Shown here: positions 581 to 59,516 of the stretch, in pieces
Layout: every line of letters begins with the position of its first letter
Position numbering within the stretch: the first letter of the stretch is position 1
Origin: a virus
Virus record (IMG/VR): IMGVR_UViG_3300028008_001583
Coordinates: 1 to 59,764 of that record
Length of the DNA stretch: 59,764 bases
Strand: one strand, 5' to 3'
Made by a program: the position numbers and the translations under genes
The notes under the pieces: model-generated
Told to the model about the DNA's origin: nothing
Databases searched by the model: none
What the model saw: only the letters and a program-made list of their open reading frames with translations

Positions 581-1295
581 AGCACTTATTATTCGCAGGC
601 TCCAAGTTCCGTTATCAATGGAATATGCACAATTTTGTGCAGAGTCTTGCGAAAAACATAATCTAGATTACGAATTTATTGACGCTGTTGAATTTTTAGA
701 ATGTAGAGAAGCATTTAAGTCAGTGGGCGCAAAAAAAATTAATTCCTACAAAAATAGGGCAGGACTGCATAAAATGGGAAACTGTTGCTGTCACGCTTCT
801 CATATCAAATGTTGGAAACGCATTGTAGAATTAGATGAGACTTGTATAATTCTAGAACATGATGCAGTAGTAAAAGGAGATGTGCGTAACATAGAAATTC
901 CTGATATGGTTACTACTACTTTTGGACACCGTATTCAAAATATTGATGACTATACTCCTCCGCACGAAGCAACAAAATTAGTAAGAATTAAAAGAGCATT
1001 AGGATGTCATGCTTATGCACTTACTCCCAAAAGTGCTGAATGGTTATGGGAAGATGCTAGAGTTGGCGTAAAACTTGAGTTAGATTATTATCTTATGATT
1101 AATCCGCCAACTGTATTGCCTTTATATGTTTGCGAACCCCCGCAAGTTGTAGGATGGGAAAGAGCTTCAACAACAAGATTTACTAAAGACAACCAAACTC
1201 CAACGGCACAAATATTTACTGAGATTAATAATCAACATCCTGACTCTATTACTGAAGGTTGGAAAAAAGGATATAAACCTCAAAAAAGTGGTTGA
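564..1295 (+). CDS. Glycosyltransferase, family 25 (LPS biosynthesis) type
   Basis: 243-aa protein with the GT25-like core: an opening strand KALIIRR, the segment GNCCCHASHIKCW and then ILEHDAVV, which sits where family members have an acidic E-D/D-D metal-binding motif. Such enzymes add sugars to lipopolysaccharide or to collagen-like proteins. The TTG at 564 is chosen because it keeps the first beta strand and overlaps the peroxiredoxin gene for coupled translation. An ATG at 618 is the alternative and would remove that strand. The acceptor cannot be told. It could modify host surface glycans or virion proteins. The stop codon overlaps the -35 of the next promoter. Confidence 0.72.
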   Translation: MNKISKALIIRRLQVPLSMEYAQFCAESCEKHNLDYEFIDAVEFLECREAFKSVGAKKINSYKNRAGLHKMGNCCCHASHIKCWKRIVELDETCIILEHDAVVKGDVRNIEIPDMVTTTFGHRIQNIDDYTPPHEATKLVRIKRALGCHAYALTPKSAEWLWEDARVGVKLELDYYLMINPPTVLPLYVCEPPQVVGWERASTTRFTKDNQTPTAQIFTEINNQHPDSITEGWKKGYKPQKSG

Positions 1296-1319
1296 CATTG
1301 TTTGTAATGATGTTATATT
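1292..1319 (+). promoter_or_regulatory. Sigma70-type promoter
   Basis: TTGACA at 1292-1297, a 16-base spacer, then TATATT at 1314-1319. The predicted start is near 1326. No credible protein gene follows before the terminator at 1539, so this promoter appears to drive an RNA. Confidence 0.75.
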
Positions 1320-1325
1320 AGTTAC

Positions 1326-1570
1326 ATAAGTTAGGCGACGGTCTAAGTTAGATAGTGCAAGGAACGGTGTTGCGTAGTGACACAACTTGGCTAGTAGCTG
1401 TAGTGGCAACATATGATTGTAGAGATACAAAGATATGTTTTTGGAAGTAACTATCCGATGCTAGGCTCCTCCGAATTTGGCATGAGCTACTAGGAGGTTG
1501 TTGGTAATCATTAAGTCCAACCTATCACCTTATTATTAAAAGCTCGGCATTCTATGTCGGGCTTTTTCTC
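1326..1570 (+). ncRNA. Candidate structured small RNA (about 245 nt)
   Basis: The stretch is bounded by a sigma70 promoter and a strong intrinsic terminator, and contains no ORF worth calling. Strong secondary structure is visible. A hairpin at 1408-1439 has arms AACATAT/ATATGTT and TTGTA/TACAA, separated by a tandem GA/AG internal loop and closed by a GAGA (GNRA-type) tetraloop. A 9-bp long-range helix pairs 1391-1399 with 1485-1493. CTCCT at 1466-1470 could pair with the Shine-Dalgarno-like AGGAGG at 1492-1497. These are hallmarks of a folded RNA. It matches no tRNA, tmRNA or RNase P pattern I can recognise. The function is unknown. Confidence 0.6.
1539..1570 (+). terminator. Rho-independent terminator
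   Basis: A 12-bp stem (1539-1550 with 1554-1565, two or more G-U pairs) has a TCT loop and is followed by a T-rich run. It ends the candidate RNA and insulates it from the late promoter a few bases further on. Confidence 0.9.
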
Positions 1571-13900: not shown

Positions 13901-14793
13901 CTTTTGCTAATAGAGGTATAGGATATGTTAGGTCATCTGCAACTATTACAGGTGATGGTGTAGCAGAAAATAATCAAAACGATGTAGATATAATGATTAA
14001 AAATCTATCTAGATTGCCTGGACCAGGAGATAACCTTTCTATAAATGGAATTACAGAAGTTGTATACAAACTTACAAGAATTACGGAAGTAACAGGCACA
14101 GAACCAAACCTATCTGCTAAAGTAAGAGTATATCCTAGTATTGGAGAAGAAGAATCTCCAGATCACGAAGCAGCTATTACTATAAGGCAGAACTATAGTC
14201 AAGTACGATTAACAGGACACGATTTCTTAGATATAGGATCCGGAAATGTTAGCAGTACTAGATATCCTCAGCTTTATATAGAAGGTGTTGATAGTGATAA
14301 TCAACCACAACAACAAAATGAAGTTTTAGAAGCAGGCGGCGGACGAGTATTTTATACGTCAACAGACCAAGATGGTAACTTTAGAGTTGGTGAGCTATTT
14401 GAAGTAGAACAGTCAACTGGTGTTGTTACTATTGATGCTTCACAATTTGACCTAACTGGATTAACGCAGCTTAGTTTAGGAGGTATCAAAGTAGGAGGTA
14501 GTGCAGTTGTAATTACAGAATTTAGTAAAGACTCAACGTTTATTGCAAATAGTAATAACATTGTGCCAACACAATCTGCTATTATTTCTTATCTTACTAG
14601 TAAAATTGCAGGCGGTAGTTCAAATGCTATAACTAATAAATTAACTGCTGGACAGGTTGTTGTTGACTTGTCTAGAATACAAACTAATGGAACAGAAATA
14701 CAGATACCTGTTCCGGCCAATTTGGCAAGTGGTGGCATAGCAGGTGGCGACATGTTAGCAATGCAATTGTTTGCACATAGGTCAAAAAGATAA
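10984..14793 (+). CDS. Giant tail fibre: eight CBM-like repeats plus beta-helix (1269 aa)
   Basis: Residues about 10-440 are eight tandem repeats of about 54 aa with the pattern W...Y...D-I/V-V-x-Y-x-G-x-x-Y and then HTS and a closing W. They resemble the CBM5/12-type carbohydrate-binding fold of chitinases. A beta-helix begins near residue 489 (YFVGAHGTD) with IYITTGTYIEN, ALVGDELRST and SPYIQNVTTFG. The C-terminal region has GYTSAPTATI, the RLTGHDFLDIG and DQDGNFRVGELF blocks and a NIVPTQSAI segment. It is paralogous to the next gene throughout. The likely function is multivalent binding to cell-surface polysaccharide. The assignment to CBM5/12 is by pattern only. Confidence 0.8.
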   Translation: MADFLLDRIRFKWKASWVTGTAYTKDDIIYYKGRIYVCMTGHTSSADIASDLSNWELMLDGQEWRGEWQTNTVYGIGNIVKYNGYIYRAVSNHTSVILANLGLPNDIGHWTLLATTYDWKNTWATTTIYELGDVVRYNGIVYICDTRHTSAATAANGLEADQSSWTVVVTSDYWSTDWTVETKYNVNDTVRYGGRVYRCITGHTSAAVEADGLEDDQAKWEIIISGLEYKSSWASGVRHKLNDIVKVDSVLYICITPHIAGVSFAAGIDNWQVWMPGIGYEESWSALTQYDKGDIVQYGGYTYVALETNINSTPPTTGFQPGVGNWDLLNTEYSLNGDWEISTSYHTGDVVRYGGYLYLATDDNAGQSPDESISWVTVIPGQAFKAEWNDGSSYGPGDIVTYKGTAYVCLKTHSASASDSRPDLDQDYTQENFWEYVAKGSTSNVLAEVGDMRTYNTAIVRLPVGSPGQVTKVINNLPTFSNFGVTEKVYFVGAHGTDAEGFGFSGNAPFRSVKYACDYITEDVAGRAPATIYITTGTYIENLPISVPQGVALVGDELRSTVIQPAPGNELNDMFYVRNGSGIRNMTLKGLTGQLGGQNQYLTRRPSGGSFVSLDPGTGPADTSAWIVNKSPYIQNVTTFGTACTGLKIDGSLHNGGNRSIVANDFTQVIDDGIGAWVLNGGLSELVSVFTYYNYIGYLAENGGKMRATNGNNSYGTFGSVAEGVAAGEDAITAQIDNETKEAEIGIVHNNGNEIMAIAYSNAGKNYSSATIAVGGSGANASLTMSDIRNGAVSRVRVSTLGDSSVPGGINYTQIQGGAQLGDTTSITLDNADVQTDNTKYEGQFIFITSGAGIGQYGVIDTYNVGTKVATIVKHSDGTAGWDRIDSNYAIASALDLTTRYQIEPRVVFSAPDSGTTAWGRVVVQNSRINAVNIYNPGSGYTSAPTATITDNEATIDAELEVFIEDGVLGIPTFANRGIGYVRSSATITGDGVAENNQNDVDIMIKNLSRLPGPGDNLSINGITEVVYKLTRITEVTGTEPNLSAKVRVYPSIGEEESPDHEAAITIRQNYSQVRLTGHDFLDIGSGNVSSTRYPQLYIEGVDSDNQPQQQNEVLEAGGGRVFYTSTDQDGNFRVGELFEVEQSTGVVTIDASQFDLTGLTQLSLGGIKVGGSAVVITEFSKDSTFIANSNNIVPTQSAIISYLTSKIAGGSSNAITNKLTAGQVVVDLSRIQTNGTEIQIPVPANLASGGIAGGDMLAMQLFAHRSKR
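11005..12310 (+). repeat. Eight tandem coding repeats (CBM-like modules)
   Basis: Eight copies of a unit of about 160 bases encode the W...GD-I-V-x-Y-x-G-x-x-Y-x-C module. Copies have diverged at DNA level, so this is an old protein repeat rather than a recent DNA duplication. Confidence 0.75.
14200..14231 (+). repeat. 32-bp block identical to 18998-19029
   Basis: Encodes part of the conserved RLTGHDFLD segment of both giant fibres. Flanking sequence is clearly diverged, so the identity suggests recent exchange or strong constraint. Confidence 0.7.
14338..14384 (+). repeat. 47-bp block identical to 19118-19164
   Basis: Encodes the GGRVFYTSTDQDGNF segment in both giant fibre genes. All 47 bases, including wobble positions, are the same, while neighbouring codons differ. 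Confidence 0.8.
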
Positions 14794-24652: not shown

Positions 24653-26455
24653 ATGTCATCAGGATACATTTTAGGAATTTCAAGAGGCCATAATGCAGGC
24701 GTATGTCTACTTAAAGATGGCCAAATTGTTTTTGCTAGTGAAGAAGAAAGATTTACTCGTCACAAATACGACGGCGGCCCGTTGGCAACGATGATGAAAG
24801 TAAAAGAATACACTGATAAAATTGACGCTATTGTTGTGTGTCATACTACAGATTTAAAAGATGGACCTAAGATAGAATATACTGGTGATAATCTTTATTC
24901 TGGATTAGCTAGAAAAATGGGGTTGATTGATCGAAAAGCTGATATACATAGACACCCGCAGTGTATAGACGTCTCTAATCTTCACCATAAAGTACATGCT
25001 GCTTGTGCGTTTTATCGTTCTGGGTTTGACGAAGCTGTTGCTGTCGTTATCGACGGCGCAGGGTCAGCAATGACTGGAGAGACGCAAGACGGTCCTGTAA
25101 CATTATGGGAAGTAGAAAGTATATACGATTGCTCTTATCCAGACAATATTAAAACATTATATAAACATTATGGTTGTAGAGATCCTATTGTTACTGCTAT
25201 TAATCCTAAAACTAATGGAGAACAATTTGGCGATGCACCGGGCCATACATTTACATCGGTTGTTTCAGGACATGCAGGTATTACAAAAGTCTATGAAGCA
25301 GTAACTCAGTATTGCGGATTTCAAGCAATTGAAGCAGGAAAAACAATGGGATTGTTTCCGTACGGAGCCGAAAATGAAAATATTCCTAAATTGTTTACAA
25401 CAGATACAAAAATTCCATTATCTAATCGTACTATGATAGTTCCAACATATCCAAATGGTGCTATTGTAAATCATTATAATTATGATGAATTATCGCCTAG
25501 TCCAACGGGTGACGAGACTGATTGGACCGAATACCAAAATAGAAGAGATTTAGCGTATGCTTGTCAAACACAAACACAAGAACAATCACTTGATATAATA
25601 CTTTCCGCAGTTAAAATGTCTGGTAAGAAGAAAGTAGTGTTAAGTGGAGGATACGGATTAAATTGCGTAGCAAACTACTGGTATTTGAATAGATTAAATG
25701 AAGAAGGTATCGAATTGTTTGTTGAGCCTATTTCAAACGACGGTGGAACGGCTATTGGAGCAGCTCTATTATACTATCATTCTGTAGAGCAGTCAGAGTT
25801 AAGACGACCTAGAGAGATATATTTAGGACCTCAATACAATTATACTGACGATGAAATTAATAAACTTGCCGAAGAATACAATGCAATTGTTGAAGATGCA
25901 ACAGACGAAAAAGTTATTGAGTTAATGACAAATAAAAATATTGTAGCAATGTTTCAAGGCAGAGCAGAAAATGGTCCTAGAGCATTAGGCAATAGAAGCT
26001 TAATGTTTGATCCAACATTTGAAGACGGCAAAGACTTTGTTAACGAAATTAAACGTAGAGAATATTTCCGCCCGTTTGCTGGGTCTATTCTTGCTGAAGA
26101 TGCACACGAATGGTTTGACCTACGCGGTATGGAAGATAGTCCGCATATGATGTATGCTGTTAACTGTCAGCCAGGGATTGCTGAAAAAATTCCTAGCATT
26201 ATTCATGTTGACGGAACTTGTAGGATACAAACAGTTAATGAAGAAGAAAATCCTCTTTATTATCGTGTGATCAAAGCATTTAAAGAAAAGACAGGAGTAC
26301 CAATCATCTTTAATACTAGTTTTAACCTTGGCGGCGAGCCACTAGTTGAAACACTCGAAGATGCACTTTGGACCTTAAGCGAAAGTAAGATTGAATATCT
26401 ATATTTGCCTGAATACGGAAAACTTCTTACAGTCGGAAATTGGACAATTGCTTGA
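24653..26455 (+). CDS. Carbamoyltransferase, NodU/CmcH family
   Basis: 600 aa, the full length of the family, two bases after the previous stop. The N-terminal half has GISRGHNAGVCLL, EEERFTRHKYDG, HHKVHAACAF and VVIDGAGSAM, the Kae1-like ATP/carbamoyl-adenylate domain. The C-terminal half has GGYGLNCVANYW, NDGGTAIGAAL, GRAENGPRALGNRS and GVPIIFNTSFN, the carbamoyl-transfer domain. It converts carbamoyl phosphate and ATP to carbamoyl-AMP and transfers the group to a hydroxyl, usually on a sugar. Beside GT and methyltransferase genes it probably carbamoylates a sugar. Confidence 0.92.
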   Translation: MSSGYILGISRGHNAGVCLLKDGQIVFASEEERFTRHKYDGGPLATMMKVKEYTDKIDAIVVCHTTDLKDGPKIEYTGDNLYSGLARKMGLIDRKADIHRHPQCIDVSNLHHKVHAACAFYRSGFDEAVAVVIDGAGSAMTGETQDGPVTLWEVESIYDCSYPDNIKTLYKHYGCRDPIVTAINPKTNGEQFGDAPGHTFTSVVSGHAGITKVYEAVTQYCGFQAIEAGKTMGLFPYGAENENIPKLFTTDTKIPLSNRTMIVPTYPNGAIVNHYNYDELSPSPTGDETDWTEYQNRRDLAYACQTQTQEQSLDIILSAVKMSGKKKVVLSGGYGLNCVANYWYLNRLNEEGIELFVEPISNDGGTAIGAALLYYHSVEQSELRRPREIYLGPQYNYTDDEINKLAEEYNAIVEDATDEKVIELMTNKNIVAMFQGRAENGPRALGNRSLMFDPTFEDGKDFVNEIKRREYFRPFAGSILAEDAHEWFDLRGMEDSPHMMYAVNCQPGIAEKIPSIIHVDGTCRIQTVNEEENPLYYRVIKAFKEKTGVPIIFNTSFNLGGEPLVETLEDALWTLSESKIEYLYLPEYGKLLTVGNWTIA

Positions 26456-53658: not shown

Positions 53659-55239
53659 ATGGCAGCATCACTAGACGGCGTCTTAATTAAGAAAGCCAAT
53701 AAACAAGAAACTTATACAAACGAGCAAGTTGAAGAACTGCTGAAGTGCATGGATCCTGACGAAGGGTACTTACACTTTGCAAGAGCATTTGCATTTATTC
53801 AGCATCCCGTAAAAGGTAAGTTGTTGTTTGATCCTTATGAGTACCAATTACGTTTGATGCACAGCTACCATAGCTATCGTTTTAATATTAATATGATGCC
53901 TAGACAAACAGGTAAAACTACGTGTGCTAGTATATACCTTGCTTGGTATGCTATGTTTAATCCAGACCAAACTATTCTTGTTGCTGCACACAAATACACA
54001 GGTGCGCAGGAGATTATGTCACGCATACGTTTTGTGTACGAAACTTGCCCTGATCATATTAGAGCAGGTGTTACAAGTTACAACAAACAATCAATTGAAT
54101 TTGAGAACGGCTCACGCATTGTAGCGCAAACTACAACAGGTAACACAGGACGTGGTATGAGTATCTCGTTACTATATTGTGACGAGTTTGCATTTGTGCA
54201 GCCTAACATTGCGGAAGAGTTTTGGACTTCAATATCACCTACACTAGCAACTGGTGGCCGTGCTATTATTACAAGCACACCAAACTCAGATGAAGATACA
54301 TTTGCTACTATTTGGAAACAAGCAGAACAAAAGTTTGATTCCCACGGCAATGAGCAAGAACTAGGTATAAATGGATTTCATAGTTTTGTTGCTGAATGGC
54401 ACGAACATCCTGATAGAGATGACAAATGGAAAGAAGAAGAAATTGGTCGTATTGGCGAAGAGAAGTTTAGACGTGAATACGGTTGTGAATTCTTAGTATT
54501 TGACGAAACACTGATTAATTCAATTAAACTTGCTGTAATGGAGGGTGCAAACCCTATTTTAAATATGGGTCAAACTCGTTGGTATAAAAAGCCAACTAGT
54601 CAATATACATATGCTATTGCACTAGATCCTAGTATGGGTACAGGCGGAGACTATGCCGCGATTCAAGTTTTTGAATTACCTAGCTACGAACAAGTTGCTG
54701 AATGGCAACATAACCAAACTGCTATTCCAGGACAAATAAGAGTACTTGCAGACATATGTAAATACGTTGAGCAAGAAACAGGAAACACAAATGGCATATA
54801 TTGGAGTGTTGAAAACAACGGCATTGGAGAAGCTGCACTAATTGTAATTAATGACTTTGGAGAAGAAAACATTCCGGGACTGTTTGTAAGCGAACCTATG
54901 CGTAAAGGACATGTAAGAAAGTTCCGCAAAGGATTTAATACTACACACGGTACTAAAATTACAGCATGTAGTAGATTAAAAACAATGGTTGAAAATGACA
55001 AAATGACAATACATAGTAAGCCATTGATATCAGAACTCAAAGGATTTGTTGCCACAGGATCAAGTTTTCAAGCAAAGTCTGGAATGACTGATGATTTAGT
55101 TAGTGCTTCATTACTTGCATTACGAATGATGTCAGTACTCAAAGACTGGGATCCAAGAGTGTATAATACATTTACACAGGCAGAAGACTTAGAAGATTAT
55201 GAAGCACCTATGCCAATTTTTATAAGTACAAACTATTAA
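53659..55239 (+). CDS. 17: Terminase large subunit gp17
   Basis: 526 aa (T4 gp17 is 610). PRQTGKTT near residue 81-88 is the Walker A motif and LLYCDEFAFV near 172 the Walker B with catalytic glutamate. TSTPNSDED is the coupling motif. The C-terminal nuclease has ALDPSMGTGGDYAA near 321, SVENNGIG and MTDDLVSA, giving the RNase H-like acidic residues. It cuts the concatemer and pumps DNA into the head using ATP. The shorter length fits the marine T4-like group. Confidence 0.95.
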   Translation: MAASLDGVLIKKANKQETYTNEQVEELLKCMDPDEGYLHFARAFAFIQHPVKGKLLFDPYEYQLRLMHSYHSYRFNINMMPRQTGKTTCASIYLAWYAMFNPDQTILVAAHKYTGAQEIMSRIRFVYETCPDHIRAGVTSYNKQSIEFENGSRIVAQTTTGNTGRGMSISLLYCDEFAFVQPNIAEEFWTSISPTLATGGRAIITSTPNSDEDTFATIWKQAEQKFDSHGNEQELGINGFHSFVAEWHEHPDRDDKWKEEEIGRIGEEKFRREYGCEFLVFDETLINSIKLAVMEGANPILNMGQTRWYKKPTSQYTYAIALDPSMGTGGDYAAIQVFELPSYEQVAEWQHNQTAIPGQIRVLADICKYVEQETGNTNGIYWSVENNGIGEAALIVINDFGEENIPGLFVSEPMRKGHVRKFRKGFNTTHGTKITACSRLKTMVENDKMTIHSKPLISELKGFVATGSSFQAKSGMTDDLVSASLLALRMMSVLKDWDPRVYNTFTQAEDLEDYEAPMPIFISTNY

Positions 55240-58526: not shown

Positions 58527-59516
58527 ATGGCATCATTAGCAGAAATCCGAGCAAAGCTCAAAGAACAAGAGAACCGCACTTCAGGTGGTTCAAATGGCCC
58601 AAGCGGTCCAAACCCAATTTACCCATTTTGGAATATGAAAGAAGGCGAGAGTTCAACTCTACGTTTCCTTCCTGACGGTAACGCAGACAACACATTCTTC
58701 TGGGCAGAACGTTTGATGATCAAACTTCCGTTCGCAGGAGTCAAAGGCGAAACCGATTCACGTCCAGTACAGGTACAAATTCCATGTATGGAAATGTACG
58801 GCGAGACATGTAATATTCTTAACGAAGTCCGTGGCTGGTTTAAAGACGCAAGTTTAGAAGACATGGGTCGTAAGTATTGGAAGAAGCGTTCATACGTATT
58901 CCAAGGCTTTGTTACAGATAATCCACTTGCTGACGATCAAGCACCAGACAATCCAGTTAGACGTTTTATTATTGGTCCACAGATCTTCCAGATCATTAAG
59001 CAGGCACTTATGGATCCTGACATGGAAGAGTTGCCAACAGATTATACTGCTGGTGTAGACTTCCGTCTTAATAAAAGTTCAAAAGGAGGTTACGCAGACT
59101 ATTCAACATCAAACTGGGCACGTAGAGATCGTCCACTTAGTGATGAAGAAATGAATGCAGTAAACACACACGGATTGTTTAATCTAACAGACTTCCTTCC
59201 AAAGAAGCCAGACGAGACTGCACAGAAAGTAATGCATGAAATGTTTGAAGCGTCAGTAGACGGTGAAGCATATGATGCAGATCGTTGGAGTCAATATTTC
59301 CGTCCTGCAGGAATGCAAGCACGTACAGGAGATCCACAAGTAGCGGCATCTCCACAAGCAACTGCTGTAAGCCAGAGTGCTCCAGTAGCAGAAACACCTA
59401 CTCCAGTAGCAGAAACACCTACACCTACACCTGCTCCAGAAGCGGCTCCAGAGGCTGCAAGCGGCGGCGATGCAAACGACATTCTAGCAATGATCAGAGC
59501 ACGTCAAGGACAGTAA
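58527..59516 (+). CDS. 32: Single-stranded DNA-binding protein gp32
   Basis: 329 aa. The N-terminal SLAEIRAKLKEQ is the cooperativity domain. The OB-fold core includes STLRFLPDG, FFWAERLMIK and YPFWNMKEGE. The acidic and Pro/Ala-rich C-terminal tail ends in NDILAMIRARQ. T4 gp32 binds zinc through one His and three Cys, but here only C87 and C95 are visible, so the zinc site seems reduced. It coats single-stranded DNA in replication and recombination. The gene is followed by uvsX, the recombinase. Confidence 0.9.
   Translation: MASLAEIRAKLKEQENRTSGGSNGPSGPNPIYPFWNMKEGESSTLRFLPDGNADNTFFWAERLMIKLPFAGVKGETDSRPVQVQIPCMEMYGETCNILNEVRGWFKDASLEDMGRKYWKKRSYVFQGFVTDNPLADDQAPDNPVRRFIIGPQIFQIIKQALMDPDMEELPTDYTAGVDFRLNKSSKGGYADYSTSNWARRDRPLSDEEMNAVNTHGLFNLTDFLPKKPDETAQKVMHEMFEASVDGEAYDADRWSQYFRPAGMQARTGDPQVAASPQATAVSQSAPVAETPTPVAETPTPTPAPEAAPEAASGGDANDILAMIRARQGQ

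Follow-up and report, generated by a model that had tools for sequence, protein, structure and literature searches.

The manA RNA has been listed as a possible riboswitch since 2010 (PMC2864571), and later papers repeat the term "cis-regulatory" for it (PMC9964418, PMC12197685). The literature that we examined on manA gives no tested function or ligand, and a search that covered few subscription journals turned up no description of manA as a stand-alone transcript. In cyanophage S-CREM1, manA was reported together with the wcaG RNA (RF01761) and the glnA riboswitch (RF01739) (PMC9964418), and a published riboswitch search in pelagimyophages found none.

Here, we describe a manA-type RNA in a 59.8-kb IMG/VR virus record (the window, meaning the whole stretch of DNA analysed), in which the element occurs in one copy. 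It shares with manA RF01745 (PMC2864571) a full-length match, a multibranch fold, a conserved 3' hairpin and an occurrence in marine T4-like phages, and cyanophage manA members likewise have a promoter directly upstream. It differs from RF01745 in scoring below the gathering threshold, in being closed by a terminator of its own and not continuing into a gene, and in the terminase and SSB of its phage, which are not cyanophage-like. The features of the locus are as follows.

1292–1319, + strand: sigma70-type promoter, TTGACA-16-TATATT, 11/12 consensus matches, with TG before the second hexamer
1331–1531, + strand: manA-family RNA (RF01745, model positions 1–192, 46.5 bits); start inferred at about 1326
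1331–1346, + strand: P1 hairpin (1331–1336/1341–1346), with compensatory changes in the close clade and the wider family
1351–1526, + strand: closing stem of the multibranch fold (1351–1355/1522–1526; helix 2), with family covariation
1368–1382, + strand: hairpin (1368–1373/1377–1382; helix 4), with covariation in the close clade and the family
1391–1464, + strand: central stem (1391–1396/1459–1464; helices 5–8), with family covariation
1468–1497, + strand: stem (1468–1472/1493–1497) with apical hairpin (1478–1481/1486–1489; helices 9–10), with family covariation
1482–1485, + strand: apical loop AUGA, 5' half of the loop-loop contact, covarying with 1508–1511
1500–1521, + strand: 3' hairpin with loop 1508–1511 (UCAU), with covariation in the close clade and the family
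1538–1566, + strand: intrinsic terminator, a 13-pair hairpin followed by T's; a consensus-type match kept in relatives
1576–1584, + strand: T4-type late promoter motif GATAAATAC, the putative start of a separate transcription unit
1598–1679, + strand: freshwater-2 RNA (RF02980), a leader for the following gene; exceeds the gathering threshold with 67.4 bits
1677–2126, + strand: downstream gene in a T4-like structural region, with no family match of its own

Identification of a divergent manA-family RNA

A preliminary description of the locus had proposed a phage-encoded structured RNA that matches no recognised family. The RNA itself was upheld by covariation, by the conserved promoter and terminator and by two-way homology, whereas the lack of a family was not: RF01745 matched over its full length with 46.5 bits and an E-value of 7e-11 when 521 bases were searched against 4227 Rfam families, or 2e-12 when the one genome was searched. 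Since the curated gathering cut-off of RF01745 is 55.2 bits, such a match is easily missed; at the gathering threshold Rfam reported only freshwater-2, and an E-value threshold was needed to show manA. Intermediate relatives scored 55.7 and 60.4 bits against RF01745. When the RF01745 pairs were mapped on the window, only 1467/1498 and 1473/1492 were non-standard, and three consensus pairs fell in gaps.

Detection also ran in the opposite direction, from the window clade to established manA RNAs. A model built from the window clade alone (R1) found cyanophage manA over its full length (P-SSM2, 30.9 bits, E 1e-6; contig L071, 43.8 bits), with cyanophage copies reaching E 2e-10, and also retrieved graded intermediates in contigs that had been fetched for freshwater-2. 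A second model (R2), trained on part of the set, recovered, with scores of at least 80 bits, cyanophage copies that its training had not included. As its own score falls short of 55.2 bits, the window RNA is placed in a clade homologous to manA that lies outside the curated cut-off, and not as an ordinary member.

An exact 20-mer scan revealed that 40 other viral contigs carry the RNA, together with the promoter and usually also the terminator where the contig extends far enough. One copy was present in each of 17 phage records with a manA-type RNA. No manA RNA was found in 14 bacterial control genomes; five matches from a pattern scan of bacterial genomes were rejected as chance, the remainder of the RNA being absent. 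A nucleotide search of the phage collection with the window sequence gave no real match, and a hit in S-SSM7 was set aside as chance, as it lay within annotated genes and the true S-SSM7 manA copy is elsewhere.

The terminase (53659–55239) and SSB (58527–59516) of the window are nearest to those of Pseudomonas jumbo phages of the PA5oct group (54% and 47%, respectively), and thus neither points to a cyanophage. PA5oct and Phosso, the closest named phages by these two proteins, gave no match to the manA RNA model. We take the window as a T4-superfamily phage on the basis of its T4-like baseplate genes and late-promoter motif. Auxiliary genes include a Nol-like carbamoyltransferase (24653–26455) and a peroxiredoxin (44–580).

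Covariation supports the manA fold and a loop-loop contact

The preliminary description had named a lack of covariation among homologues as one outcome that would refute its proposal; covariation was present in both the close clade and the family. In the close-clade alignment (26 distinct RNAs, 95% mean identity), which was made without structure, compensatory changes were seen in 8 pairs and 99.4% of cells pair. Among 50 aligned relatives, both sides change in 48 of 52 pairs and 96.8% of cells pair, counts that lean towards the model because this alignment was fitted to it. In the same 50-sequence alignment, the covariation score was 0.739 versus 0.209 in shuffles, and sliding the partners by 1–3 columns lowered pairing to 37–43%. 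The structure-free and model-fitted alignments agree, and the consensus manA stems are kept by compensatory change across clades; the closing stem, for example, reads GAUAG/CUAUC in the window and GGGAG/CUCCC in cyanophages. The central stem carries hairpins at 1397–1407, 1409–1438 and 1441–1458.

The region is more stable than its shuffled versions (RNAfold z-score, −3.1; 1 of 200 shuffles equally good). RNAfold favours another fold by about 15 kcal/mol (−55.2 versus −40.3), in a calculation that omits the loop-loop contact from the energy. Because energy alone misses the conserved fold, the fold rests on covariation.

These data also bear on the individual structural elements suggested earlier. 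A tandem-GA hairpin with a GNRA-type loop was partly recovered: the purine-rich hairpin does have a GAGA loop (1422–1425) on an inner stem (1417–1421/1426–1430), but the adjoining bases are not clearly tandem G-A. For a proposed 9-bp long-range helix (1391–1399/1485–1493), the window sequence is complementary, but the close clade offers no compensatory changes and just 28% of cells pair among the other relatives. This helix is also incompatible with the manA stem 1391–1396/1459–1464, for which 98% of the same cells pair and compensatory changes are present. The suggested anti-Shine-Dalgarno pairing to AGGAGG (1492–1497) is not conserved either, since this motif belongs to a covarying stem, as part of its 3' arm, and none of 37 relatives outside the clade has it.

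Within the close clade, the loops at 1482–1485 and 1508–1511 switch together (AUGA/UCAU, n = 9; GAGA/UCUC, n = 17), and they do so across differing P1 backgrounds. Outside it, the loop pair is AGGA/UCCU, CAGAA/UUCUG, CUGAU/AUCAG or CUGUA/UACAG. The longest complementary run averaged 4.6, with certain best runs falling outside the loop itself; none of 2000 shuffles, a control that does not correct for relatedness, reached this value (mean, 4.0). Covariation thus supports a predicted contact between the two loops. A "pseudoknot?" with weaker support was drawn in manA by Weinberg et al. (PMC2864571), and may be the same contact.

A predicted promoter and terminator flank the RNA

The sigma70 promoter of the preliminary description was confirmed as the best-scoring site within the first 3.6 kb in a consensus scan, its first hexamer overlapping the 3' end of an upstream ORF (564–1295). 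Relatives keep the hexamers, and the spacer between them varies. The terminator is likewise present, with 13 pairs in place of the 12 described. The absence of a credible ORF in the approximately 245 bases between them also held: the longest ORFs are 26–31 aa, and the region does not look coding because relatives differ by single-base insertions and deletions, for which reason we dropped a coding explanation for 1326–1531. The RNA therefore has its own promoter and its own terminator, as a stand-alone phage small RNA gene would, both being consensus matches kept in relatives.

We then compared the flanks across relatives, calling promoters and terminators at all loci as consensus matches. In 161 of 165 loci, the RNA is preceded at a distance of a few bases by a promoter that matches 9 or more of the 12 consensus positions, versus 12.5% of random places; with 10 or more required, the figures are 158 of 165 loci and 2.1%. 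The promoter–RNA gap is about 6 nt in cyanophages and about 12 nt in the others; named isolates with a promoter before manA are P-HM1, MED4-213, P-SSM3, P-RSM6, P-SSM7 and P-SSM2. From these sequences, marine T4-like phages appear to make this folded RNA from its own promoter.

Of the 49 non-cyanophage loci, 45 have a terminator in the 110 nt behind the RNA (3.9% of random places), with a T4-type late promoter motif beyond it. The downstream context of this set is biased because it was partly chosen by freshwater-2, unlike the window set, which was picked by the RNA. In cyanophages this fraction was 22 of 100, the other 78 being without one, and in many copies an ORF begins 10–50 nt downstream. 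Non-cyanophage loci without a terminator within 110 nt were L020, L033, L179 and L211; in L033, a hairpin with a T run lies further downstream.

The terminator sequence varies among the 45 loci and is swapped freely between close relatives. Complementarity of the terminator arms was no greater with their own RNA than with other RNAs (4.80 versus 4.90), and 268 of 300 shuffles were equally high. Among the continuous Watson-Crick runs with the 5' arm that this comparison covers, there was no antiterminator signal, that is, no conserved pairing between aptamer and terminator of the kind expected in a riboswitch attenuator.

A separate transcription unit is predicted downstream

Freshwater-2 shares the intergenic region with the manA RNA, 66 nt further downstream, and is a distinct element: situated past the terminator and the late promoter, it would open a late transcript. 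Of 112 freshwater-2 loci, 110 have TAAATA at 14–60 nt 5' of the core (3% at random), so that the family seems to mark where phage late transcripts begin. ATAAATA also stands just 5' of many plus-strand genes of the window, for example at 14790, 28261, 43778, 47194, 47960, 52417, 53647 and 55247. Between manA and the next ORF, TAAATA is present in 33 of 101 cyanophage loci (3.8% at random). The 5' UTR position implied by the Rfam type Cis-reg is thus not what the window displays: the RNA has its own promoter and terminator, and the next gene has a late promoter motif.

The ORFs next to manA-type RNAs fall into 43 clusters, which include transaldolase-like proteins and, probably, gp32-like proteins as judged from their sequences, along with the window clade's structural protein family. 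In that clade, the same structural gene family comes next in 29 of about 40 loci.

Interpretation of the locus

We consider it probable that the window carries a divergent manA-family RNA arranged as its own gene, most likely acting in trans early in infection. Host RNA polymerase carrying a sigma70-type factor would initiate at around 1326, just ahead of the first hairpin; the transcript would fold into the manA multibranch structure with its loop-loop contact, and would end at the intrinsic terminator near 1570 with a length of about 245 nt. The structural gene that comes next would be served by its own T4-type late promoter and the freshwater-2 leader. The folded RNA could then bind a protein, an RNA or a small molecule of host or phage early in infection. 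Homology to manA, the fold, conservation of promoter and terminator, one copy in each record and the lack of an antiterminator signal are computational results; transcription, early timing and action in trans are what we infer for the window RNA: its own promoter and terminator, together with the late promoter and leader of the next gene, make action in trans the most likely mode.

That manA is instead a cis-acting leader, whose sensing domain and conserved terminator form an attenuator of the downstream structural gene, appears unlikely to us, even though Rfam files the family as Cis-reg and Weinberg et al. (2010; PMC2864571) counted it among the riboswitch candidates that lie in potential 5' UTRs. 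The closeness of many cyanophage copies to an ORF and the usual presence of the same gene family behind the window clade agree with a leader; the absence of excess complementarity between terminator arms and RNA, the free exchange of terminators between close relatives, the separate late promoter motif of the next gene (as in the 110 freshwater-2 loci), the many kinds of downstream gene and the single copy per record all speak against it. A riboswitch usually tracks a function. Because manA tracks its promoter and not a function, with 43 downstream clusters and one copy, an independently transcribed RNA is the better account of the window clade. A regulated terminator may nonetheless operate there, given the 29 of about 40 loci with the same structural gene family, and a leader role stays tenable for the cyanophage copies, most of which lie just upstream of a gene, 78 of 100 without a nearby terminator.

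That nearly every locus has the RNA precisely where transcripts are predicted to start, and that unrelated genes follow it in cyanophages, would also suit a partnerless cassette in which a strong early promoter is joined to a folded 5' end that protects against host or phage nucleases. We think this improbable, more so than a leader, because a simple stabiliser needs no 200-nt fold, invariant unpaired bases or loop-loop contact, and in the window clade there is nothing behind the terminator to protect. That promoter, hairpins and terminator came together by chance in an ordinary intergenic region has a negligible likelihood: short consensus matches are indeed common (14 promoter-like sites found by consensus scan versus 12.4 expected), but the 40 contigs conserve the element with compensatory changes, and this covariation already refutes chance, in line with the earlier view that the parts are too complex for it.

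What looks new in the stand-alone arrangement is the architecture, namely an own promoter, a terminator and a separate downstream unit, and this layout suggests that manA RNAs are in many cases small independent genes and not switches before a gene. If the RNA is an independent one-copy transcript, ligand searches based on downstream genes would be misdirected, and the question would become which early host process is the target of a single folded RNA in so many marine phages; this question is testable because the named isolates P-SSM2, P-HM1 and S-SSM7 carry it. More tentatively, and with somewhat less than even confidence, we propose that the whole manA family is no riboswitch class but a widespread, single-copy RNA that phages express early and that works in trans on a host target common to cyanobacteria and other bacteria; the leader-like cyanophage copies would likewise be this RNA, either processed out of the adjacent mRNA or terminated ahead of it.

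At the gathering threshold, Rfam gave no match to wcaG (RF01761) or glnA (RF01739) in the window. A glnA riboswitch aptamer above the cut-off lies about 150–240 nt upstream of manA in two relatives (L184, 4919–4966, − strand; L246, 512–558, − strand), in the order glnA–manA–freshwater-2. In the cyanophage contigs L099, L114, L132 and L172, a tRNA-like sequence, of the Asn type by eye, is found just 3' of manA.
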